Assembly: GCF_000020785.1 (NCBI RefSeq)
Contig: NC_011126.1
Coordinates: 1,302,001-1,366,000, forward strand
DNA: 64,000 nucleotides
Origin: Hydrogenobaculum sp. Y04AAS1
GTDB lineage: Bacteria; Aquificota; Aquificia; Aquificales; Aquificaceae
Direction of reading: 5' to 3'
Shown here: positions 12,186-62,831 of the stretch, one piece after another
Numbering within the stretch: the first letter of the stretch is position 1
How the letters are laid out: the number at the start of each line of letters is the position of its first letter
Position numbers and translations under genes: made by a program
The notes under the pieces: model-generated
What the model saw: only the letters and a program-made list of their open reading frames with translations
Database searches by the model: none
What the model was told of the DNA's origin: nothing

Positions 12186-14318
12186 ATGGAGTTATTTTTT
12201 GATGTAAAAACAAGTCTCCCACGGTTTACAAGTCTCCCACGGGTTTTAAAAAGAGACAACGTTACAGAGGTGGATTTTGATGTAAACAGGATAGAAAAGG
12301 CTATAGAAAAGGCCTTTGATGCGGTTTCGGAGTTTAAAGGAATAGATAACGCTTATATAAAAGATATTGCCAAAGAGGTGATAAGTGCTATATGTAGGAG
12401 GGGATTAAGCGTTATAACGATAGAGCAAATCCAAGATATAGTGGAAGAAACGATTATAGCGCATGGCTTTTCAAAAGTAGCAAGAGCTTACATAGTTTAT
12501 AGAAGAGAAAGAGAACGGGTAAGAGAAACTGAAGCTGGTTTGGTAAATTTGGAAAATACAACTATAGATATAGACAAATTGGTAAAAAATTACATTAGCC
12601 AAGAAGATTGGAGAACTTTTGAAAATTCAAACTCAAGTTTTTCTTATCCAGGTTTATATTTACATGTGGCTGGGTCTGTGATTGCCAATTATACCCTTAA
12701 AAACGTTTATCCGGAACATATCAGAAAAGCTCATGAAAGTGCCGATATTCATATACACGACCTATCTCATGGCATAGTAGCTTATTGTGCAGGATGGTCT
12801 ATGGAGGATTTGCTTAGGAAGGGTTTTAGAGGTGGTTATGGTCAAATCGTAGCTGGTCCGGCAAAACACTTATCGGCTCTTACTGGGCAGATGGTGAATT
12901 TTCTTGGTGTAATGCAAATGGAGTTTGCCGGAGCACAGGCTTTTAACTCTGTGGATACATTTTTGGCACCTTTTGTAAGAGTTGATAACCTTGATTATCA
13001 AGATGTTAAGCAGCTGATTCAACAAATGGTTTTTGCTATGAATGTTCCATCAAGATGGGGCTCTCAGCCACCTTTTATAAACTTTACCTTTGATTGGACA
13101 GTACCAGAAGATATGAAAAATAAACCCGTGATAATAGGTGGTGAGGAAAGACCAGACATAGGATATTATGGAGATTTTCAAAAAGAGATGGATGTTATAA
13201 ACAAAGCTTTTATAGAAGTGATGCTCGAAGGCGATTATGCTGGTAGGATTTTCTCTTTCCCTATACCTACTTACAATATTACAAAAGATTTTGATTATTA
13301 CGGCGAAAACGCTAAGCTCCTCTGGAAAATGACGGCAAAATACGGCACACCTTATTTCCAAAACTTTGTAAGCTCTAGTTTAAAACCCGGTGATGTTAGG
13401 TCTATGTGTTGTAGATTGCAGTTGGATTTGCGAGAATTAAGGAGTAGAATGGGTGGACTTTTTGGTGCGGCTGATAAAACTGGTAGCATAGGTGTTGTTA
13501 CCATAAATTTACCCCGTATAGGATATTTGGCTAAAACAAAAGAAGAGTATTTTTCAATGCTTTTCGAAGCTATGGATATTGCCAAAGAATCTTTGGAGAT
13601 AAAAAGACGCGTAGTTGAAAGAAACCTAAAAGCTGGTTTAATGCCTTATGCAGCCTCTTATCTCAATTCTTTTGATAATCATTTTTCTACAATAGGCATC
13701 GTTGGTATGCACGAGTCTTTGTTAAACTTTTTAGGTAAAGGTATAAACACAAAAGAGGGAAAAGCCTTTGCCATAGAGATACTTCAAAAGATGAGAGAAA
13801 GATTGAGTCTTTATCAAGAATTAACTGGTCATCTTTACAATTTAGAAGCCACGCCAGCTGAGGGGACATCTTATAGGTTAGCTAAGCATGATAAGAAAAG
13901 ATTTCCCGATATAATAACCTCTGGGGAAAACGAACCTTATTATACAAATTCTACTTTACTACCAGTAGGATATACCGAAGATCCTTTTGAAGTTTTAGAA
14001 CACCAAAAGGATTTGCAAACGCTTTACACTGGTGGTACCGTAGTGCATATGTTTTTAGGAGAATCTCCAAACGAGAATACTTTACCTGAATTTATAAGAA
14101 AAGCCTTTGAAACCTATCCCATACCTTATCTCACAATAACACCAACGTTTTCCGTTTGTCCAAACCACGGGTATATAAATGGTGAACATTTTAATTGTCC
14201 TGTTTGTAATGCACCTTCAGAAGTTTACTCAAGAGTTGTAGGTTACTATAGGCCTGTGCAAAGATGGAACGCTGGTAAAAAAGAAGAGTTTAAAGATAGG
14301 TTAGAATACATGTTGTGA
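12186..14318 (+). CDS. nrdD: Anaerobic (class III) ribonucleoside-triphosphate reductase
   Basis: Oxygen-sensitive reductase making dNTPs with a glycyl radical. It has 710 residues when started at the ATG at 12186, preceded by AAGGAGG at 12174-12180. An N-terminal ATP-cone (VLKRDNVTEVDFDVNRIEKAIEKA) precedes the catalytic barrel. A C-terminal Zn-type site (CPNHGYINGEHFNCPVC) and the glycyl-radical motif RVVGYYRPVQRWNAGK (radical on G686) are present. Residues 9-20 (TSLPRF TSLPRV) are encoded exactly by two 18-bp copies of the dispersed repeat, placed just before the ATP-cone. It is followed by its activase gene nrdG. Confidence 0.96.
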   Translation: MELFFDVKTSLPRFTSLPRVLKRDNVTEVDFDVNRIEKAIEKAFDAVSEFKGIDNAYIKDIAKEVISAICRRGLSVITIEQIQDIVEETIIAHGFSKVARAYIVYRRERERVRETEAGLVNLENTTIDIDKLVKNYISQEDWRTFENSNSSFSYPGLYLHVAGSVIANYTLKNVYPEHIRKAHESADIHIHDLSHGIVAYCAGWSMEDLLRKGFRGGYGQIVAGPAKHLSALTGQMVNFLGVMQMEFAGAQAFNSVDTFLAPFVRVDNLDYQDVKQLIQQMVFAMNVPSRWGSQPPFINFTFDWTVPEDMKNKPVIIGGEERPDIGYYGDFQKEMDVINKAFIEVMLEGDYAGRIFSFPIPTYNITKDFDYYGENAKLLWKMTAKYGTPYFQNFVSSSLKPGDVRSMCCRLQLDLRELRSRMGGLFGAADKTGSIGVVTINLPRIGYLAKTKEEYFSMLFEAMDIAKESLEIKRRVVERNLKAGLMPYAASYLNSFDNHFSTIGIVGMHESLLNFLGKGINTKEGKAFAIEILQKMRERLSLYQELTGHLYNLEATPAEGTSYRLAKHDKKRFPDIITSGENEPYYTNSTLLPVGYTEDPFEVLEHQKDLQTLYTGGTVVHMFLGESPNENTLPEFIRKAFETYPIPYLTITPTFSVCPNHGYINGEHFNCPVCNAPSEVYSRVVGYYRPVQRWNAGKKEEFKDRLEYML
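12210..12245. repeat. Dispersed 18-bp repeat, 2 units, inside nrdD
   Basis: Two consecutive copies, ACAAGTCTCCCACGGTTT (12210-12227) and ACAAGTCTCCCACGGGTT (12228-12245). The units coincide with codon boundaries and encode TSLPRF-TSLPRV. They match the family consensus, read in the reverse orientation, with C for G in CTGCC. Confidence 0.9.
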
Positions 14319-14324
14319 GGTCCT

Positions 14325-14394
14325 ACAAGTCTGCCACGGCCACAATATGCCATGGCCTACAAGTCTGCCACGATACACAAGTCTGCCACGATAT
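14325..14394. repeat. Dispersed 18-bp repeat, 4 units, nrdD-nrdG junction
   Basis: Four adjacent units: 14325-14341 (17 bp), 14342-14358 (17 bp, diverged: ACAATATGCCATGGCCT), 14359-14376 and 14377-14394 (18 bp each). They fill nearly the whole gap between the nrdD stop and the nrdG start, leaving no recognisable Shine-Dalgarno sequence for nrdG. Confidence 0.9.
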
Positions 14395-35551: not shown

Positions 35552-36037
35552 ATGCTTACAATGAAGCATATATTTGATAGCATAAAAGGCTTTATAAAAG
35601 TACTTGAGCTTATAGCCGATTATATAAAAAGCCATGAGCATATAGAAAAATCTCATTGCATATTTTTAACGCTTGATTATATTGTATCTGTGAAGAATAA
35701 CCCTGAAGAGGTTGAGAGTATTTTAAAAGAATTAACAGGAGGTGATAAGAAGGTTATGACACTAACAGAAAAGTGGATGATGGAAGGATTGCAAAAAGGA
35801 TTAGAAAAAGGTAAGCAAGAAGGATTGCAAGAAGGATTAGAAAAAGGTAAGCAAGAAGGATTGCAAGAAGGATCTCTTAAAACCAAAAAAGATGATGTCA
35901 AGAGCGCCATCCTTATCAAGTTTGGAGTACTACCAAAAGAGCTTGAAGAGAAGATAGAAACCACAGATGATATAAAAGCTTTAGATGAGATGTTTAAGAA
36001 GGTTATACTGGCCGGCAAGATTGAAGAGATTTTGTAA
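35552..36037 (+). pseudogene. Broken Rpn/PD-(D/E)XK transposase-like gene, C-terminal remnant
   Basis: A 161-codon frame that looks like the 3' part of a recombination-promoting nuclease/putative transposase (Rpn) gene. It starts MLTMKHIFDSIKGF, and an in-frame stop lies 12 bases upstream. The N-terminal nuclease domain normally present in about 300-residue relatives is absent. The middle is a charged KGLEKGKQEGLQEG region built from a 36-bp tandem duplication, typical of these proteins. It ends four bases from the convergent methylase gene and marks the edge of an accessory island. The family call is by pattern memory. Confidence 0.6.
35798..35869. repeat. 36-bp tandem repeat, two perfect copies
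   Basis: Units 35798-35833 and 35834-35869 are identical (each beginning GGATTAGAAAAAGG) and encode GLEKGKQEGLQE twice. A shorter degenerate start of the unit lies just before (35786-35797). The repeat is in-frame within the Rpn-like remnant and unrelated to the dispersed 18-bp repeat. Confidence 0.9.
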
Positions 36038-36041
36038 GAGA

Positions 36042-39000
36042 TCAACTTCCCTCTATTATTTTTATCTCCTCTTCCGTTAATCCGTAAAGCTTGTAAACTA
36101 GCTTATCTATCTCATGCTGAAGCCTTTTTACATGCTCTTGCTTTTCTTGATTTGTATCGTAATCTTTAGATTGGGTAAGCGTGAGGATTTGGTCTACTTT
36201 TTGGATTACTTGGTCTACGAGGGGCTTATTTTCTTTTGTGATTGGGGGAAGGGGGATAAGTTCAACATACTGTTTTATCCATCTTTGGGCTCCCTCGGAT
36301 AGTGAATAAGCTAAGCTTTGCATATACCATTTTGAAATTTTAGAATTCAGTAGTCCTAAGATGAATTTTAAATTTTTGCCAGTCATTATATAAGCTGTTT
36401 GATTTGTATAAAACTTTTTATCATCATAAGCAAAAGAAGGTTCAAGGCTCATCTCTTGCCACACTATCTTTTCTTTTTCAAATTCTGGATAATATGCTAT
36501 ATTATCTTGTGTCTCAAACCATTTATTTGATGTCCTTTTACGATGACCTGGTTTCCCGTCTTGTAATAACCTATCTCCAAAGCTTCCTAAATACTCTTTC
36601 AAAGCTGGATAATTGTCAATATTAAGATTTTTTGCTGGAAAAGTTCCAATTATCCACAATCCAGCCCACTTATACATATATTTATCAATATCTCTACCTC
36701 TTAAAACTGGCTTTATAATTTCCTCTGTTCTTTTTCTCTCTTCTTCGGTTTTACAATTTCTTAAAATCTCATCTCTCTTCTCACTATCGATAATAAAAGC
36801 CTCATTAAATCCTGTTTTTATTCCATAATAAATCTTTACATCCCAATCTTTTAAAGGTTTTCCTGCTTTTTCAATCTTATCTTTTAAGCTCAAAACACTT
36901 TCATCTCCAAGCGTCCAAGCGTTATCAGAAAGCTTACTTTGATACATAGTTTGCCATGTTCTAAGTTCTTGCCATGTATCTACCTGAGGCCAACTATCTA
37001 AATGCTCAACTTTTTTCTCAGTAGCTTGCCCAATCAACTTGGGTTTGCCTTTTCTTCTCAAATACTCTTCAATATCTTCAATACCACCTTTAACCTCTAA
37101 AAATCTAAAAATATGCTCTTTCCTTGGCACAAGTCTGCCACGATCATTTTCTTTTCTAAAGATCAAAATATTAGTATCCACCGTTTGCTCAAAGACGCTA
37201 TAACCACTAAAATCAATTATCTCTAAAATAGCTGTTTTTTCTTTTAAAAACTTTCTTAACTTCTCTCCGTACTTTGCCCTCATCCATTTGTTGCTTGTTA
37301 TATATGCCAAGATCCCTTGATCTTTTAAAAGCTGATAGCCTTTTTCATAAAAATATACATACAAATCTGCCGTTGATGTGAAAACTTCGTAGTTTTGTCT
37401 TTCAAGGATCGGTTTAATGGCTCTTATTTTTTCATGTCTTACATATGGCGGGTTTCCAATCACGATATCAAAACCAGATTTTTCTTTGAACACTTTTTGG
37501 TTGTGGTATACTTGTGGGAAAAAGAGTTTAAAGTCAAAATCAACTTTGTATCCAAAAATTTCCTTAGAATTTTCAAGTCTTTTTAAAATCAAGGCATCAA
37601 GTTCTTTTTTTATTTCCTTTTTTCTTTCTGGATGCGTTTCTGAAAACAGCTTATCCTCTAATTTTTCTATTTTATCTGCTATATCACTTCTCCAATTGTT
37701 AGGAAATCCAATCAAGGAATTTCCCCTAACTATTTTATAATCTAAGTTTGGAAGCGGTTTTATATCATTGAAGGAATCTTCGTCGACTATCAAAGATAAC
37801 CAAAATCTTAACTTACAAACCTCAACAGCCCCCGGATCAATATCAACGCCGTATAGAGAATTCTCTATTGTATGTCTTTTTAAATCATAATTACTAAGGT
37901 TGTTTTTTGTATATACAGAAAGAAGCTGTCTCAGCTTTACAATCTCATGTAACATGCCAACAAGGAAAGCTCCAGAACCAACCGCAGGATCGCAGATTTT
38001 TAGATCATTGAGTAGTTTATCTATTTCTTTAGCGTTTTTTACTATACTTTCAGGAATTTCGTATTTGTATTTTGAAGCTTTAACATTATTTTCAACTTTT
38101 TCTTGAGCTACTTTTTCATTTTCAACAAGCAAATCAGCATACTTGATAAACTTTTCTAAATCTTCTCTTCCAATTTTAGAACCGTGGTATACTTGCTCCT
38201 CTAATTGAGATTCAAGATAATAAAGGAGGCTTTCTTGACACATATAATGAACGATCTCTCTAGGCGTATAATAAACTCCATATTCTTTATTAAATTTAGA
38301 CTCTTTGCTTCTTCTGGAAGACTTTAAAGCTTTTAAATACTCATCAAAATTATCCTCTCTAATTGCATTTAGTTTCTCATAAATCTTACCAAGTAGCTCT
38401 GGATCAAGTGCAACTTCTTTTTCAAGCGGTTCTTCTTCGTTTACAGTAAAGTTGTATCTGTCAAACACATCAAGTATCCCATCCCCTATATCACCTTCAT
38501 CTGTTTTATGATTGTTTGAAAAAAGATCATTTGGCAGTGGGATATCTACCTTAACCCAGTCAAAATCATTTGGTGGATCAAAGAGCCCACCATTTAAAAA
38601 TGGAATTTTACATTTAAGCTTATCGTAGTAATGGTCGTCAGAACTTCTACCATCTCTTAAAGCTTTATAAAATAACGGCTCAAGAACATCGTTATAAAAA
38701 TTTTTATAGCTTATATACTCACCATTAAAAAGCTTTCTAATAAAATCTTTTGGACCTGTTCCAAAATCTTTGCCTTTCTCTACGCCAAACCATCCTTTTT
38801 TCTGCAAAAAGTATAAAAACACTATCTGACCAAGAAGCTTTTTAGCAAAATCAACAGTGCTAATATTCTTATTTTTAAATTCTTTCCTAAGCTTTTCGTC
38901 TTTTTTGACAATATTGTCAAGTTCAATCTTGGTTTTTATAAATAAATCTCTGTATTTTTCAAAAAATTCATCTGTGATGGTTTCTATATCAAAAGCTTTT

Positions 39001-39575
39001 TGAATTTCTTTTAAAGTAGGTTCTTCATCTGATTTTAAAAGCCCTAAGAATCTTGATTGAGCTGTATGACTTTTTTCGTTTTTACCAACTAAAAAAGACC
39101 ATCTTTTAGCTGGTGATAGCTCATCTATTAATTTTCCTCCTTCTTTTTTATACTCTAATTTAACAAGAGAGAATCTCCAATCTTCCTCCATACAAGTCTG
39201 CCACGGTCTAGGAGATACGAATGCAACAAGCGCAGCGTCTTTTAATGAATCCGTTCCAACTTTCCCACTTAAATAATCAGCTACAAAGTTTCTTTGGGCT
39301 ACTCTTGATCTATATAAAGATTGTCCTTTTTTGAGATAAACTATAAGAATATCTATCACATTTTTTTCTGAATCTATATACCTTCCCAATCTTTCCCAAG
39401 AACCTATGAAATCTAAATATTTTTCTCTTACTACTTGTGATCCGCTTCTTTTCTTTAGAAACTTGCTTCTATCGTACTTCTTTAGCAAATTAGCTATAAA
39501 TCCCTCAAATTTCCTTTCATCAAATTTGCTTTCAAACACATCTTTTACAAGATTTTTTGCTCTTTCCTCGTCCAT
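36042..39575 (-). CDS. Eco57I-type adenine methylase / type IIG-like restriction-modification protein
   Basis: An 1177-residue N6-adenine methyltransferase in the style of type IIG enzymes. The SAM motif is ICDPAVGSGAFLVGML at about 526-541, and the catalytic NPPY at about 708-711 (GNPPYVRHEK). A large N-terminal region, which could hold a nuclease, and a C-terminal target-recognition region (PLKDWDVKIYYGIKTGFNEAF, then ELIPLPPI) flank it. No sure nuclease motif was seen. Residues 123-128 (RPWQTC), 811-816 (DRGRLV) and 860-877 are encoded by units of the dispersed 18-bp repeat. A ribosome site TAGGAG precedes the start. It follows the PLD-helicase gene and probably forms a defence pair with it. 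Confidence 0.88.
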   Translation of the reverse strand: MDEERAKNLVKDVFESKFDERKFEGFIANLLKKYDRSKFLKKRSGSQVVREKYLDFIGSWERLGRYIDSEKNVIDILIVYLKKGQSLYRSRVAQRNFVADYLSGKVGTDSLKDAALVAFVSPRPWQTCMEEDWRFSLVKLEYKKEGGKLIDELSPAKRWSFLVGKNEKSHTAQSRFLGLLKSDEEPTLKEIQKAFDIETITDEFFEKYRDLFIKTKIELDNIVKKDEKLRKEFKNKNISTVDFAKKLLGQIVFLYFLQKKGWFGVEKGKDFGTGPKDFIRKLFNGEYISYKNFYNDVLEPLFYKALRDGRSSDDHYYDKLKCKIPFLNGGLFDPPNDFDWVKVDIPLPNDLFSNNHKTDEGDIGDGILDVFDRYNFTVNEEEPLEKEVALDPELLGKIYEKLNAIREDNFDEYLKALKSSRRSKESKFNKEYGVYYTPREIVHYMCQESLLYYLESQLEEQVYHGSKIGREDLEKFIKYADLLVENEKVAQEKVENNVKASKYKYEIPESIVKNAKEIDKLLNDLKICDPAVGSGAFLVGMLHEIVKLRQLLSVYTKNNLSNYDLKRHTIENSLYGVDIDPGAVEVCKLRFWLSLIVDEDSFNDIKPLPNLDYKIVRGNSLIGFPNNWRSDIADKIEKLEDKLFSETHPERKKEIKKELDALILKRLENSKEIFGYKVDFDFKLFFPQVYHNQKVFKEKSGFDIVIGNPPYVRHEKIRAIKPILERQNYEVFTSTADLYVYFYEKGYQLLKDQGILAYITSNKWMRAKYGEKLRKFLKEKTAILEIIDFSGYSVFEQTVDTNILIFRKENDRGRLVPRKEHIFRFLEVKGGIEDIEEYLRRKGKPKLIGQATEKKVEHLDSWPQVDTWQELRTWQTMYQSKLSDNAWTLGDESVLSLKDKIEKAGKPLKDWDVKIYYGIKTGFNEAFIIDSEKRDEILRNCKTEEERKRTEEIIKPVLRGRDIDKYMYKWAGLWIIGTFPAKNLNIDNYPALKEYLGSFGDRLLQDGKPGHRKRTSNKWFETQDNIAYYPEFEKEKIVWQEMSLEPSFAYDDKKFYTNQTAYIMTGKNLKFILGLLNSKISKWYMQSLAYSLSEGAQRWIKQYVELIPLPPITKENKPLVDQVIQKVDQILTLTQSKDYDTNQEKQEHVKRLQHEIDKLVYKLYGLTEEEIKIIEGS
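36945..36998. repeat. Dispersed 18-bp repeat, 3 diverged units, inside the methylase gene
   Basis: Three diverged units of exactly 18 bp, read on the minus strand as GATAGTTGGCCTCAGGTA, GATACATGGCAAGAACTT and AGAACATGGCAAACTATG. They encode DSWPQV, DTWQEL and RTWQTM, in the same phase as the RPWQTC unit elsewhere in this gene. The 18-bp spacing of the TGG codons is exact. Confidence 0.75.
37129..37146. repeat. Dispersed 18-bp repeat, 1 unit, inside the methylase gene
   Basis: ACAAGTCTGCCACGATCA on the plus strand. On the coding strand it is read in a different frame from the other two copies in this gene and gives DRGRLV (residues 811-816). Confidence 0.85.
39192..39209. repeat. Dispersed 18-bp repeat, 1 unit, inside the methylase gene
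   Basis: ACAAGTCTGCCACGGTCT on the plus strand, a near-perfect consensus unit. On the coding strand it is codon-aligned and gives RPWQTC (residues 123-128), interrupting what otherwise reads LVAFVSP then MEEDWRFSLVKLEY. Confidence 0.9.
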
Positions 39576-39718
39576 CTTAAACTCCTATAACATGGTTTAA
39601 GCATCTTTCTAAGTTCTTAATCGGTTTGCCTTTTTACTAATGCTGAAACCCGTCATTGCCGTTCTAGTATGCATTGCATTTATTACACTACCAGTGCCTA
39701 TTACCTCGTCAACTCCCG

Positions 39719-39790
39719 ACAAGTCTACCACGATCCACAAGTCTACCACGATCCACAAGTATGCCACGATCCACAAGTATGCCACGTCAT
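39719..39790. repeat. Dispersed 18-bp repeat, 4 units, methylase-helicase junction
   Basis: Four perfectly spaced 18-bp units: 39719-39736, 39737-39754, 39755-39772 and 39773-39790. The first two are identical (ACAAGTCTACCACGATCC); the third and fourth have ATGCC for CTACC. They sit in the 230-bp gap between the helicase and methylase genes. The remainder of the gap (39576-39718) carries the methylase ribosome site and about 110 bp without recognisable content. A 66-codon minus-strand frame across the array (39609-39809) encodes repetitive AYLWIV/VDLWIV and is probably not a gene. Confidence 0.9.
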
Positions 39791-39805: not shown

Positions 39806-42800
39806 TCATCGCTCTAAGTATAAAGATAATATAACCTCTCTTTTATGAGTCCTATTATCTATTATATCCGAGTATTTTTTATCAATAAAGTTTTTTGGAA
39901 TTTCATTTTTTAATATGGATAGGGCTTTCGTTGGATCTTCAACATTTTCTATATACTTTAAAACCCTCTGAACTGTCTTTTTTGGTAAAGCACCCTCTTT
40001 TAATCTTTCGATGACAGCATCCAAAAACTCTTCTTGGTCCTCTGTTAGATTTCTTTTATCTCTAAATATAGCTTTAATATGTTTAAACAACTTTTGAGAG
40101 TTATCTCTACCTGATCTTTGATTATCTATTTCCTCCTCTAACGTATCATAAATAAAAGCTTCTTTGTTTTTATCAAGAAGATTGTAGAATTTTTCTAAAG
40201 GAATATTTATCCTCGGTTGGCTTTCATCACACTCAAATAATTTTGCAGCGGACAAGAAATCAAGCTCCCGGGTTTCGTTTTTGTCGGATATATAAAACTT
40301 CATCAATTTACCTTTTCTAAAAAATGTCAAAAGCATATCTGTATCTACTTCATAAATCTTACCAGAACGAGCTTTTTTGGGAATTTGCTTTATCTTTTCA
40401 AATAAATCTGGGTTGTTTTTCTTTATTTTTTCTATAATTTTATAGTATTTTAATTCACTTTCTTCAAACTCTTCTTCATTCAAAATATCTTTTGATATAA
40501 GTTTATCAAACAACTCATGAGAACCTATCGGCTCTCCTTCTGTTAAGATTGCAGCATCTCCACCGAGCAGATTTAGAAAAGCTTCTACCTTTGATCTAGC
40601 TATTTGTTGTAATTGTATTTGATCTTCTACTTGAGTGGTTGGAAAAAAGTTGAAGACATAGATCTTGTCAAACTTGGTATCCAATCTATTTACCCTTCCC
40701 ACTCTCTGAATTATTTTAGTTGGATTCCACGGTATGTCGTAATTTATAATGATATTTGACCTATGAAGATTAACCCCTTCGGATAACACATCCGTAGATA
40801 CAAGGATTCTATAATCATCTTTCTTTATCTTTGAGCTATCATCAAAGTTCTCAACAATCTTATCCTTTATCTCTTCAGGAGAACTACCGTGAAATAAGAT
40901 AGCTTGATTGCCAAACACTTCATCTAATTTTTGTGTTATGTATTCTGCGGTTTCTCTGGACTCAGTAAAAATTATGATTTTTTGATCTTTCAAAATTTGG
41001 TTTTCTTTTAACTCTTTTATCAAAACATCTAACTTGGGATCTCTTTTAATATCCTGCCATAAATCTCTTATTCTTTCCAAAATTTCCTTATCTCTGTTTA
41101 AATTATTTATAAAATCTTCTTTAAAATCTTTTATGTCGTATTCTTGTGCTTTACCTTCGTTTATTAGTCTTTCTATTTCTTCGTCATTATCATTTTCTAA
41201 AAGCTCTAAAATTTTATTTGAATACTTCTTGCTAATATATACTTTTTTCTTATTTTTTATGGTATTTAACATCCCATCGTAAGATTTTATAAATCTATCC
41301 AACGTCTTTCTAAAAGCATAGAAACTACTCTCTAAACGCTTTACGAGAAGAACTTTCATGAAAGAAGCCATGTTTTCCTGGGATTGCTGTTCTAAAGCAT
41401 CAATTTTTGATTTCAGATACAAAAGCGGTGTATACCTTGTATAAGTTAAGTTTTTAGTTATGAGATTAATCGTTTCCATAAAAGCTTTGTCTTCTTCGTC
41501 GTTTAATTGATACAATATTGGAATAGGGGCATCTACCTGAGGGAATTTCAAGCCATTTTTCTTAAGATCCTCCTTAAAATATGTTTCAATATCTTTCCTA
41601 GTTCTTCTTATCATTATATACCTCAAAACCTTATTCCTTATTTCTTTGGCTACGTCTCTTGATTCTTTTATAAATTTTTCTTGATTCTTGCTCTTTTTAG
41701 CGTTTTGTAACCTGGTTTCAAGCTTTTTAAAAAAACTTTCTAAATTTTTAATACCAGGTATATTGCTTTTTTTTGGGCTTTGAAATAACTTTATCTGAGA
41801 CAAAATATCCTTTGGAGAATTGTTATAAGGAGTTGCAGAAACCAGTATAACCCTTTTGCCTCTACATATCTCTGCCAATTTTTCATAAGTGGTGTTTGAT
41901 TCGTTTCTAAATCTATGAGATTCATCTATGATAATATTATCGTATTTTCTGCGTTCAATTTCTTCTATAGCTTCATCAAGCTTACCCACAGATACAGCTT
42001 TAAATGGTATATGAAAATCTCTTAAAACATTCTCCCAAGAACCAGGATTACTGCTGCTTAGTAAAGCCGGAGGAGCTATCACCATAGTTCTACCACCAAG
42101 TTGAGAAACTAACATGGCAGTCATATAAGTCTTTCCAAGACCCACAACATCAGATATAAAAACACCACCATACTCTTCTACAATTTTCTTAGCGTTTAAA
42201 ACAGCTTGTTTTTGGTATTCAAGTTCTTTAAAATTATCTGGAAATTTGTTGCTGTATAAATCATCAACATTGCTTAGTTCGTCTTTGAAATATTCATACA
42301 AAAATTTAAGATAAAGTTCATAAGGTTTTATAGCATCATTTATGAACTTATTAATGGTATTCACAAACTTCTCGCTTACATCAACAGAATTTCTCCAAAG
42401 CTCTTCAAACCTTTGCTTTGCATACTCGTAATCGCTTCTATTTTTAAGCTCTACGTTAAACTCCAGATTTTCCACCAATCCTTTTTGGGTAAAATTGCTT
42501 GAGCCTGTTATCACTCTTCCAACATCTCTATCCCCCTCTTTAAATGTCATTATGTAAAGTTTAGCATGCAAGCCCCCTTCTTTATGAGCCCTTATCTCCA
42601 GCTTTTTTGTACTTATCCATTCTATAAATTTTCTGATACCTTCCTCTGTTTCTTTATTATCTTCTGAATCCTCAAGATCTTTAATTATGCCTTCTTCTAT
42701 TGATTCTTTTATTTCTTTCTCAGACAAAGCAATAGAGCCCTTCTGAATAGAATCATAAGTAAATTTATCAGTAGAAATCCCTATTAGAATTCTTATTTTA

Positions 42801-42961
42801 TCTGTACTCTCTAAAGATTTATAAATAGCATAAAAACCACTTGCAAAAAAATAGCCAACTAAAACGTCAAAAAATTTTACATCTTTGATAAGTTCGTTAA
42901 ACCTATCTTTTAAAGTCTGCCCTTCTTGATTTGTAATAAAAGTAATATCAGTATAGCTCAT
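39806..42961 (-). CDS. PLD-nuclease/SNF2-type helicase fusion (defence-associated)
   Basis: A 1051-residue protein. The N-terminal phospholipase-D-like domain has a single HxK...N motif (HAKLYIM from residue 132, GSSNFTQ with N156). A superfamily 2 helicase follows: Walker A SDVVGLGKTYMTA, motif II DESH, motif III LVSATPYNNSP, and helicase C-terminal STDVLSEGVNLHRSN with motif VI QRVGRVNRLD. The C-terminal 300 residues are unassigned. Such PLD-SNF2 proteins accompany adenine methylases in restriction-like defence loci. It starts 25 bp after an orphan hydrogenase small subunit gene. No clear Shine-Dalgarno sequence precedes its start. Confidence 0.9.
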   Translation of the reverse strand: MSYTDITFITNQEGQTLKDRFNELIKDVKFFDVLVGYFFASGFYAIYKSLESTDKIRILIGISTDKFTYDSIQKGSIALSEKEIKESIEEGIIKDLEDSEDNKETEEGIRKFIEWISTKKLEIRAHKEGGLHAKLYIMTFKEGDRDVGRVITGSSNFTQKGLVENLEFNVELKNRSDYEYAKQRFEELWRNSVDVSEKFVNTINKFINDAIKPYELYLKFLYEYFKDELSNVDDLYSNKFPDNFKELEYQKQAVLNAKKIVEEYGGVFISDVVGLGKTYMTAMLVSQLGGRTMVIAPPALLSSSNPGSWENVLRDFHIPFKAVSVGKLDEAIEEIERRKYDNIIIDESHRFRNESNTTYEKLAEICRGKRVILVSATPYNNSPKDILSQIKLFQSPKKSNIPGIKNLESFFKKLETRLQNAKKSKNQEKFIKESRDVAKEIRNKVLRYIMIRRTRKDIETYFKEDLKKNGLKFPQVDAPIPILYQLNDEEDKAFMETINLITKNLTYTRYTPLLYLKSKIDALEQQSQENMASFMKVLLVKRLESSFYAFRKTLDRFIKSYDGMLNTIKNKKKVYISKKYSNKILELLENDNDEEIERLINEGKAQEYDIKDFKEDFINNLNRDKEILERIRDLWQDIKRDPKLDVLIKELKENQILKDQKIIIFTESRETAEYITQKLDEVFGNQAILFHGSSPEEIKDKIVENFDDSSKIKKDDYRILVSTDVLSEGVNLHRSNIIINYDIPWNPTKIIQRVGRVNRLDTKFDKIYVFNFFPTTQVEDQIQLQQIARSKVEAFLNLLGGDAAILTEGEPIGSHELFDKLISKDILNEEEFEESELKYYKIIEKIKKNNPDLFEKIKQIPKKARSGKIYEVDTDMLLTFFRKGKLMKFYISDKNETRELDFLSAAKLFECDESQPRINIPLEKFYNLLDKNKEAFIYDTLEEEIDNQRSGRDNSQKLFKHIKAIFRDKRNLTEDQEEFLDAVIERLKEGALPKKTVQRVLKYIENVEDPTKALSILKNEIPKNFIDKKYSDIIDNRTHKREVILSLYLER

Positions 42962-46916: not shown

Positions 46917-46957
46917 TATCTTGTAAAATATGTTCATAAATAACAATACTGTGTAAA

Positions 46958-46993
46958 CCGTGGTAGACTTGTAGACCGTGGTAGACTTGTAAT
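46958..46993. repeat. Dispersed 18-bp repeat, 2 units, intergenic
   Basis: CCGTGGTAGACTTGTAGA (46958-46975) and CCGTGGTAGACTTGTAAT (46976-46993), in the plus orientation, opposite to the copies at 12-40 kb. They lie in the 217-bp gap between tRNA-Thr and a small gene. A decayed further copy may be GGTGGCAAACTTTAA at about 47035-47049. The rest of the gap holds the tRNA promoter and a TATAAT (47059-47064). Confidence 0.9.
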
Positions 46994-58964: not shown

Positions 58965-61410
58965 GATACTTCTTGCCCCGCCAAACGCCGATTTAGATGC
59001 TTTGAGTTCTTTGTATGGTTTATCGCTTTTAGAAAAAGACGCAAAACTTTTTTACACATCTTTTAGTCCAAAAGCCAAAAAACTCTTTGAAGATATAAAA
59101 GATAGATTTAATATTTTAAAATCTTTAGAGGGGCTAGAAAATATACATATTTTTACAGTGGATTATTCATCTATAGATTTTGTTTTTGGGCTTTTAAAAA
59201 AAGAAAAGATTAAAAAAATAACGCTGTTTGATCATCACATAAGACACATAGAAAAAGAACCACTTGTGGAAGCTTACATAGATGAAACTCTTGGGGCTTG
59301 TACTACGCTTATAATAGAGTATATCATCAAAAAACAAATCCCCATATCAAAAGAAGATGCTTCAATATTATTATGCGGTATATACGACGATACAAACTAT
59401 TTTTCCATAAAAGATATAAGCCCAAGGGATTTTGAAGCGGCTTCTTATCTTATAAAAAAGGGTGCTGATATAGAATTTGTAAACAAATATGTAAAATCTT
59501 ACATAAGCCTAAAAGATTTGATTCATGTAGAAGAATATCTAAAGAGTTTGGAGATTTTAAATATAAATGGCAAAAAGATAGGTTTTATAGTGCTTGACAC
59601 TACTCAAGAAAGTATAATTGATAATTTAAAAGATCTAAAGGAGCTTGAAGATCTCGATGCTTATTTTATCATTATGTCCTCTTCTATAAATACCTATGTG
59701 GTAGCACGCTCAAAAACTATAGATGTAGAAAGCATTTTATCAAAATTAGGAGGGGGTGGTCATACGCTTGCCTCTGGTTTAAAACTAAACTTTGTATCTT
59801 CTAAAAAATTAAAAAGTATCATTTTGGAGCTTTTAAAAGAAGAAAACCCAAAGATAACCTTAAAAGATATCATGACAAAACACCCACTTACCCTAAAAAA
59901 AGATATGAGTGTGGAAGAGGCTTTTTATACGCTTTCAAACTTCAAAATCTCAAAAGCCCCGGTTTTAGATGAGAATGAACATGTAATGGGTGCTATTACC
60001 AAAAAGGTATCGGCAAAGGCTTTGGATATTTCAAAAAAAAGCAAAGTACAAGAGCTTTTAGTAAGTATACCGCTTTTAAAAGAGGATGATTTTATTTGGG
60101 AGGCCGAGAAAGTGTTTTTAGAAAATCCTTTGGTACCTATGATAGGGGTATTGGACAAAGAAGGAAAGTTAGTGGGTATAATAACAAAATCAGATCTTAT
60201 AAGACATATTACCGGAGATGAGGAGCAAAAGATTTCCACTAAGCGTATAAACACCCCATCATATATGATGGATATTATTATGGATATCAAAAGCGTTATA
60301 CCAAAAGGCGAAAAGCTTTATTTAGTGGGGGGTGTGGTAAGGGATATCATTTTAAATAGGCCTTCTTACGATATTGATTTTGTTTTTGAAGGGGATATAG
60401 ATCTATTAGAGCAAAGCTTAAAATCTCATGGTATAAAAACCCATAGATTTCTTGGTTTTAACAGCGTTCATTTTAAATACAAAGGTTTTAAGATAGAAAT
60501 CTCAAGCACTAGAAGAGAGTATTACGAAATGGCCGGCGCTTATCCAGTGGTGTCAAAAGCCTCTTTAAAAGAGGATTTGTTTAGAAGAGATTTTACTATA
60601 AATACGCTTCTTCTTTCTCTTGATGAAGAGGATTTTGGTACTGTGATAGATTATTTTGGAGCTTTAAACGACATAAAAAATAAGATTATAAGAGTTTTAC
60701 ACCCACTTAGTTTTATAGAAGATCCAGTTAGAATATTAAGAGCTATAAGATTTGAGGCCAAACTAAACTTCAAACTTTCAAAAGACACCAAAAGACTTTT
60801 AGAAGAGACTTTACAAAAAGGTATGCTAAAATATGCTCCAAAAGGTAGAATATTCAATGAGCTAAAAATAGCCCTTCAAGAAAAAGAGTTTGAAAACATT
60901 TTTGAAACTTACAAAAAATACGGCATCATAGAATCTTTGTTTGAATACAAACCAGATTATATTTATATAGAAGAAAAATCTAAAAACCTCAAAATGTTTT
61001 CTGATTGGTATTTATTAGAGTACAAAACCCCTTTTAAAGAGGCCTCTTGGATATTTTTTTGGCTTTTAGTAAAAAACGCTCCTTCTTTAGAAGAGATTTT
61101 AAAAGGTATAAGCGCCCCGGCTTTTGTTTACAAATTTGTTGAGATCAACATCAAACACATTATATCAGAGATTTTAAAGGCCAAAAAACCATCGGAATTG
61201 TACATTATTTTAAAACCCTTTAGTCTGGAGGAATTAGCTCTTTTTGCCACCGAAGGAAACGTAGATGTTATGAACCGTATAGTAAAATATCTTTCTCATC
61301 TTAAAAACCTAAAACCAAATATAGATATAAGTTCTATACCACCAGCGGATCGTTCTAAAGTTATTGAAGAATCAAAATTAATTGAGATGGACAAAATTTA
61401 TAGTCTATGA
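58945..61410 (+). CDS. DHH-CBS-CBS tRNA nucleotidyltransferase (A-adding type)
   Basis: An 821-residue protein adding the terminal A (or CCA) to tRNA. The start is TTG at 58945 with AGAGGTGAG upstream, inside the polX 3' end (20-base overlap). An N-terminal DHH domain has PPNADLDALSS, the DHH in LFDHHIRH, and GGGGHTLASG. Two CBS domains lie at about 308-425. The class II nucleotidyltransferase domain has LVGGVVRDIILNRPSYDIDF, SSTRREYYE and DLFRRDFTINTL. Aquifex has the same architecture for its A-adding enzyme, and the separate CC-adding enzyme is not in this window. Confidence 0.92.
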   Translation: MSEKSAKILLAPPNADLDALSSLYGLSLLEKDAKLFYTSFSPKAKKLFEDIKDRFNILKSLEGLENIHIFTVDYSSIDFVFGLLKKEKIKKITLFDHHIRHIEKEPLVEAYIDETLGACTTLIIEYIIKKQIPISKEDASILLCGIYDDTNYFSIKDISPRDFEAASYLIKKGADIEFVNKYVKSYISLKDLIHVEEYLKSLEILNINGKKIGFIVLDTTQESIIDNLKDLKELEDLDAYFIIMSSSINTYVVARSKTIDVESILSKLGGGGHTLASGLKLNFVSSKKLKSIILELLKEENPKITLKDIMTKHPLTLKKDMSVEEAFYTLSNFKISKAPVLDENEHVMGAITKKVSAKALDISKKSKVQELLVSIPLLKEDDFIWEAEKVFLENPLVPMIGVLDKEGKLVGIITKSDLIRHITGDEEQKISTKRINTPSYMMDIIMDIKSVIPKGEKLYLVGGVVRDIILNRPSYDIDFVFEGDIDLLEQSLKSHGIKTHRFLGFNSVHFKYKGFKIEISSTRREYYEMAGAYPVVSKASLKEDLFRRDFTINTLLLSLDEEDFGTVIDYFGALNDIKNKIIRVLHPLSFIEDPVRILRAIRFEAKLNFKLSKDTKRLLEETLQKGMLKYAPKGRIFNELKIALQEKEFENIFETYKKYGIIESLFEYKPDYIYIEEKSKNLKMFSDWYLLEYKTPFKEASWIFFWLLVKNAPSLEEILKGISAPAFVYKFVEINIKHIISEILKAKKPSELYIILKPFSLEELALFATEGNVDVMNRIVKYLSHLKNLKPNIDISSIPPADRSKVIEESKLIEMDKIYSL

Positions 61411-62759: not shown

Positions 62760-62795
62760 TATAATTTTCTAAAATATACATCTTGAACACATAAA

Positions 62796-62831
62796 CCGTG
62801 GCATACTTGTAAACCGTGGCAAACTTGCTTG
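62796..62831. repeat. Dispersed 18-bp repeat, 2 units, intergenic
   Basis: CCGTGGCATACTTGTAAA (62796-62813) and CCGTGGCAAACTTGCTTG (62814-62831), plus orientation. They lie in the 158-bp gap between the old yellow enzyme gene and a diguanylate cyclase gene. The rest of the gap is AT-rich. Confidence 0.9.

Follow-up and report, generated by a model that had tools for sequence, protein, structure and literature searches.

The window analysed here is a stretch of 64,000 nucleotides from Hydrogenobaculum sp. Y04AAS1 (NC_011126.1, positions 1,302,001 to 1,366,000), to which all coordinates refer unless a genome is named. The gene at 36042-39575 (minus strand) encodes a protein of 1177 aa in which Eco57I, N6_Mtase and TaqI_C domains were found. 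PADLOC identified it as REase_MTase_IIG (PDLC03596; 1194 bits), and the NPPY N6-adenine methylase motif, the Eco57I domain and a TaqI-like specificity domain are all present. The protein is a predicted type IIG restriction-methylase-like (Eco57I-like) enzyme; the fold matches of its AlphaFold2 model (m7ed24b44b6d8; mean pLDDT 78.8, pTM 0.74; underlying alignment of 18 sequences) were CamA, M.BseCI, PglX and MmeI. Among Type IIG/Eco57I-like methylases it is ordinary save for four inserts and a chimaeric origin. The neighbouring gene (39806-42961) encodes a PLD-domain protein with an SNF2-type helicase that resembles DISARM DrmD and the candidate 'HKD+Snf2' defence protein, and the two genes may form a defence locus. 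Positions 35783-35873 hold a 36-bp tandem repeat within a 161-aa ORF, encoding a EGLQEGLEKGKQ-type peptide and bearing no relation to the 18-bp unit described below.

All 18-mers of the methylase gene were scored out of 18 against the unit consensus DDABCGTGGYAKACTTGT (DDAB-CGTGGYAKACTTGT). Four reached 18, 18, 17 and 16, and the next-best non-unit score was 13, shared by five 18-mers. The four units are as follows.

Unit 1: 39192-39209, minus strand, AGACCGTGGCAGACTTGT, read as RPWQTC (aa 123-128) and lying exactly between codons; 18/18
Unit 2: 37129-37146, minus strand, TGATCGTGGCAGACTTGT, read as DRGRLV (aa 811-816); 18/18
Unit 3: 38179-38196, plus strand (opposite orientation), GAACCGTGGTATACTTGC, at about aa 461-466 (EQVYHG); 17/18
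Unit 4: 37498-37515, plus strand (opposite orientation), TGGTTGTGGTATACTTGT, at about aa 687-692 (QVYHNQ); 16/18

An earlier sequence-only reading held that the methylase had taken up the repeat three times in two frames, and it named RPWQTC and DRGRLV as single units in different frames. Insertion and both named units were confirmed; the count was not, as there are four clean insertions and units 3 and 4, on the opposite strand, had been overlooked. At the unit 1 site the window protein reads SPRPWQTCMEEDWRF and homologues read SPDEEDWRF, SPNSEDWRF or SSPEDWRF, so that, as had been claimed, the protein joins smoothly without this insert. At the unit 2 site RKENDRGRLVPRKEHIF faces RKQKPRKEHIF in the sister genome G003, an empty site with 93% DNA identity around it. 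Unit 3 adds 6 aa (LESQLEEQVYHGSKIGREDL versus LESQLDGKVSREDL in homologues). At the unit 4 site the window protein has PQVYHNQKVFKEKSGFDIV and homologues have SEVFHEKGGFDIV; with the unit removed the protein becomes FFPKVFKEKSGFDIV, like the homologous FSEVFHEKGGFDIV. In the alignment, all four inserts are absent, with smooth joins, from homologues in repeat-free genomes, and homologues on IMG/VR contigs (loci without an exact core) also lack them. Support for in-frame insertion of a dispersed 18-bp repeat, with hexapeptides added, is therefore stronger than first stated.

The structure model had pLDDT values below 50 in six segments, including 124-128, 813-817 and 692-698. The first is a modelled turn between strands 114-120 and 132-139, at unit 1, and the second a turn between strands 801-808 and 822-827, at unit 2. 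Unit 3 takes in the end of helix 439-464 together with the loop after it, and unit 4 falls in the loop before strand 702-707, adjoining segment 692-698. All four inserts are thus predicted to lie in or beside low-confidence loops. Two of the checks that the sequence-only reading had proposed, homologue alignment and loop placement in a structure model, support four insertions.

Residues 1 to ~690 of the methylase are mostly 75-91% like G059a/G036a, and those from ~700 onward mostly 80-97% like G003. The methylase gene is a chimaera with a switch near residue 690-700, which suggests that two methylase lineages recombined. Such an origin would suit a gene that was acquired with the units already inside, the insertions having been made outside this lineage. 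However, neither half has the inserts in its closest relatives, which are G059a/G036a for the N part and G003 for the C part, and no doubled unit was found outside the Hydrogenobaculum group; we consider acquisition in that state very improbable.

Residues 860-877 (36945-36998, minus strand) had been read as three diverged units, and with them came a history of three insertion events of different age in which the block was the older one and selection had favoured multiples of three. W-Q motifs do recur in the block at 18-bp spacing, and G020 and G086 have one more WQ motif there. Its derivation from the repeat was nonetheless rejected: the best 18-mer scored 12/18, a chance level reached by 28 18-mers of the gene, and the block is conserved elsewhere. 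Its residues are common to G003, to G036 and G111 (another family), and to G020 and G086, with identities over an 87-aa fragment around it of 84% (G036), 80% (G111), 70% (G020) and 68% (G086). Exact cores number 0 in G036 and 1 in G020, both of which share the block. The same residues in repeat-free homologues had been set beforehand as the result that would refute a repeat origin, and for this block they were found. On present evidence, 860-877 is in all probability a protein segment that a methylase clade has conserved. Since it is not an insertion of the repeat, the dating that relied on it is left without support. Nor need selection for multiples of three be invoked: insertions between genes measure 18 bp as well, and so do array steps, the step being just as exact between genes, and the in-frame reading follows from a unit length that is 18 bp in and outside genes. 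With two real units overlooked besides, the three-event history is scarcely credible.

The unit belongs to a dispersed family. The window contains 19 degenerate-core matches compared with 2.35 ± 1.48 in shuffles, and the 1.56-Mb genome (G000; 1,559,514 bp) contains 98 exact cores compared with 0 for the reversed control. These 98 cores, with the genome read in the stretches around units, resolve into 62 sites, of which 33 hold one unit each and 29 are arrays of 2-7 units; both orientations occur, apparently mixed along the genome. Of the array steps, 59 of 62 in G000 and 46 of 48 in G003 measure 18 bp. Besides the methylase units, the window includes the following.

12210-12245, minus strand: two units with one-mismatch cores, in the N-terminal region of an anaerobic ribonucleotide reductase ORF
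14325-14394, minus strand: array with three recognised cores at 34- and 18-bp steps
39719-39790, minus strand: tandem array of four units in the intergenic stretch that separates the methylase from the PLD-helicase gene upstream
46955-46990, plus strand: two units, intergenic
62793-62828, plus strand: two units, intergenic
39606-39790: larger dispersed repeat hosting units (also at G000 199795, 203279, 204013, 218231 and 1053404)

This larger repeat (GCATTTTACT ... CGTGGGTTGACGAGGGAACAGGCACTGGTAGTGTAAGAAATGC) hosts units repeatedly at the same internal point, and a second dispersed repeat (GAGTGCCTTTG | CCTGTTCTTTAG) likewise hosts them at one internal point. A 78-nt insertion has been reported in Hydrogenobaculum tmRNA (PMC4227106); we rejected it as a unit, as the tmRNA at 60287-60712 has no listed exact-core unit nearby.

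Four other genus members have 27, 30, 71 and 61 exact cores, and 36 other genomes have 2 in total, both single. Across 84,980 GTDB species genomes the doubled unit occurred only in Hydrogenobaculum-group records, including Aquificaceae bacterium UBA2488. It was not found in IMG/VR, and carriage by viruses was rejected on that ground. The open-access literature that we searched held no description of the repeat for this genus, and one could exist elsewhere.

Comparison with G003 revealed inserts of exactly 18n bp (18 or 36) with intact flanks, no target duplication and no loss, as in AGAATT[36]CTAAAG, CCAAT[18]CGGAACC and TCA[18]AG. Exact empty sites lie inside ORFs for ribonucleotide reductase, an antiporter-type subunit, asparagine synthase, an EAL protein and others. 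The reciprocal case, insertions present only in G003, was also seen, and at several loci arrays differ between G000 and G003 by whole units. From these filled and empty sites we infer that the unit is mobile. Target preference is weak (CTNNT|MGK): in the flanks of 45 non-redundant sites, T occurred at -1 in 31 (p=9e-6), G at +2 in 23 (p=5e-8) and C at -5 in 18 (p=4e-4), all p values being uncorrected with 20 positions tested. A one-base T target duplication was rejected because T is missing from the junction of some empty sites, for example CCTTTG|CCTGTTC.

Coding DNA holds fewer units than expected, with 40 of the 62 sites in ORFs against a coding share of ~91% (p=5e-9), where the gene calls are ORF-based, so that the coding fraction and the 40/62 are approximate and some small ORFs may not be genes. 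Selection shows in this depletion. Frame and strand use did not differ from that left by a stop-codon filter (p=0.11) and is compatible with the removal of stop-generating orientations. The genes hit include those for large-subunit (NrdA-type) and anaerobic ribonucleotide reductases, RecR, CheA, CheR, asparagine synthase, a PBP1A-like protein and an antiporter-type NADH dehydrogenase subunit. Seven tandem units in the PBP1A-like gene (G000 388605-388725; L118) encode ~42 extra residues as TSMPRS repeats.

The peptides might instead be selected additions that alter the specificity, stability or phase variation of the methylase. Four units in one gene, an array beside it, and the known variability of restriction-modification genes would fit selection, yet the peptides are unrelated, coming from different frames and strands (RPWQTC, DRGRLV, EQVYHG, QVYHNQ), and the same units enter many unrelated proteins, are depleted in coding DNA and, in the methylase model, fall in or beside low-confidence loops. 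Nor can a single unit drive phase variation by frame, since 18 is divisible by three. We judge selected additions to be quite improbable. The hexapeptides most likely result when an 18-bp mobile micro-repeat, restricted to the Hydrogenobaculum group, is passively translated. In the methylase the unit would have no function; its tolerance would follow from a length of 18 bp that preserves the frame, from open readings, usually the majority of the six, and from a position in loops.

Variation between units bears on how they spread. Four bases and two more are variable within the unit, and the rest are nearly fixed. Across 229 units (G000 and G003), C occurs at neither of the first two variable bases and A almost never at the fourth; in three further genomes, 1 of 75 units has C at the first position. 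Simple copy-paste from a master copy was rejected, as the 98 units comprise 60 distinct 18-mers and for 15 of 21 young units no other array of that genome contains the same 18-mer. Only the remaining 6 have such a match, and the data thus do not simply show faithful copying from surviving donors. The variation may reflect a diverse or lost pool of donors being sampled, or bases written at insertion, and the data fit either. Units of the same array are more alike than expected by permutation, yet mostly differ from one another, and local duplication clearly contributes to the growth of some arrays as well.

The unit appears at new places as exact 18-bp multiples, in both orientations, at CTNNT|MGK-like sites. 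The two-sided target preference, together with exact 18-bp insertion, suggests a site-selecting activity, by which an enzyme, not chance breakage, may pick the target point and place the unit. A dedicated, previously undescribed Hydrogenobaculum activity that inserts 18-bp units at CTNNT|MGK without duplication, writing four rule-bound variable bases each time and so letting an 18-bp element spread into coding and non-coding DNA alike, is a plausible but tentative form of this proposal. Two known enzyme classes were looked for, Y1 transposases and reverse transcriptases, and neither was found in this genome. The Y1 transposase domain (Y1_Tnp, PF01797) had no match in G000, G001, G003 or G004, and mobilisation by a REP/RAYT system was rejected for a complete genome without such a match. 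Reverse-transcriptase templating (DGR, retron or group II) was rejected with no RVT_1 match in five genus members.

The main rival to a site-selecting activity is microhomology-guided template switching, or slippage, in replication or repair, with existing units as templates and no dedicated machinery: a CTNNT-like 3' end would pair with the CTTGT end of a distant unit, copy one unit and return. This would explain why the left flank of the target resembles the unit's own end (CT..T), and it agrees with the lack of target duplication, with arrays that vary by single 18-bp steps between genomes, and with the absence of Y1_Tnp and RVT_1 matches in G000. The MGK preference of the right flank, however, is unlike the unit's next bases; a single sequence is involved, at 62 sites and in one genus; and simple copying does not predict the rules of the variable bases, such as the lack of C at the first two across 229 units. 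We regard template switching as possible but doubtful.

Several known systems resemble the mobile unit in part. Rickettsia palindromic elements (RPEs) are lineage-specific and inserted in frame within conserved protein genes, where the peptide is tolerated, as in gmk (PMC2229807; PMC3767692). They are ~105-146 bp long, with inverted repeats and stem-loops. Like RPEs and other intragenic bacterial MITEs, the 18-bp unit lies in frame in conserved genes with empty orthologues; unlike them, it makes 18n-bp inserts, forms tandem arrays and has no self-complementary ends by inspection, so that it shares neither their size nor their inverted repeats and stem-loops. The small dispersed repeats (SDRs) of cyanobacteria are 'very small mobile repeated elements' (Elhai et al. 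2008, as cited in PMC3116915 and PMC2884548). In so far as those citations describe them, SDRs are ~20 bp, dispersed and tandem, and possibly mobile, and the unit resembles them in size, dispersal and restriction to a lineage, although the lineage is a different one. REP/REPIN sequences with RAYT (Y1) transposases are short, high-copy and lineage-restricted, as is the unit, but REPs are palindromic and mostly extragenic, and the Hydrogenobaculum genomes named above have no Y1_Tnp match. Y1 transposition likewise leaves no target duplication. Target-duplicating transposons differ from the unit, which has no duplicated flank at exact empty sites. The tandem 18-bp arrays with copy number varying between genomes are like minisatellites (VNTRs), but the unit is not a VNTR alone: at 33 of the 62 sites it stands singly, in unrelated places, which slippage alone does not create, and exact empty sites occur at unrelated loci. 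The unit is most likely a tiny mobile repeat akin to SDRs or RPEs, passively translated where tolerated.

To our knowledge, the 18-bp repeat is among the shortest dispersed insertions known. If our reading is right, few insertions known to spread in a bacterial genome would be shorter, and its units would be dense enough to reach ribonucleotide reductase, a penicillin-binding protein, RecR and chemotaxis genes. The units would amount to natural hexapeptide-insertion experiments in many proteins, with the empty orthologues as controls, and they would raise a tractable question, namely what activity inserts 18 bp without target duplication. For the genus, they would alter the length of conserved proteins and so be a pitfall for annotation and protein phylogeny.
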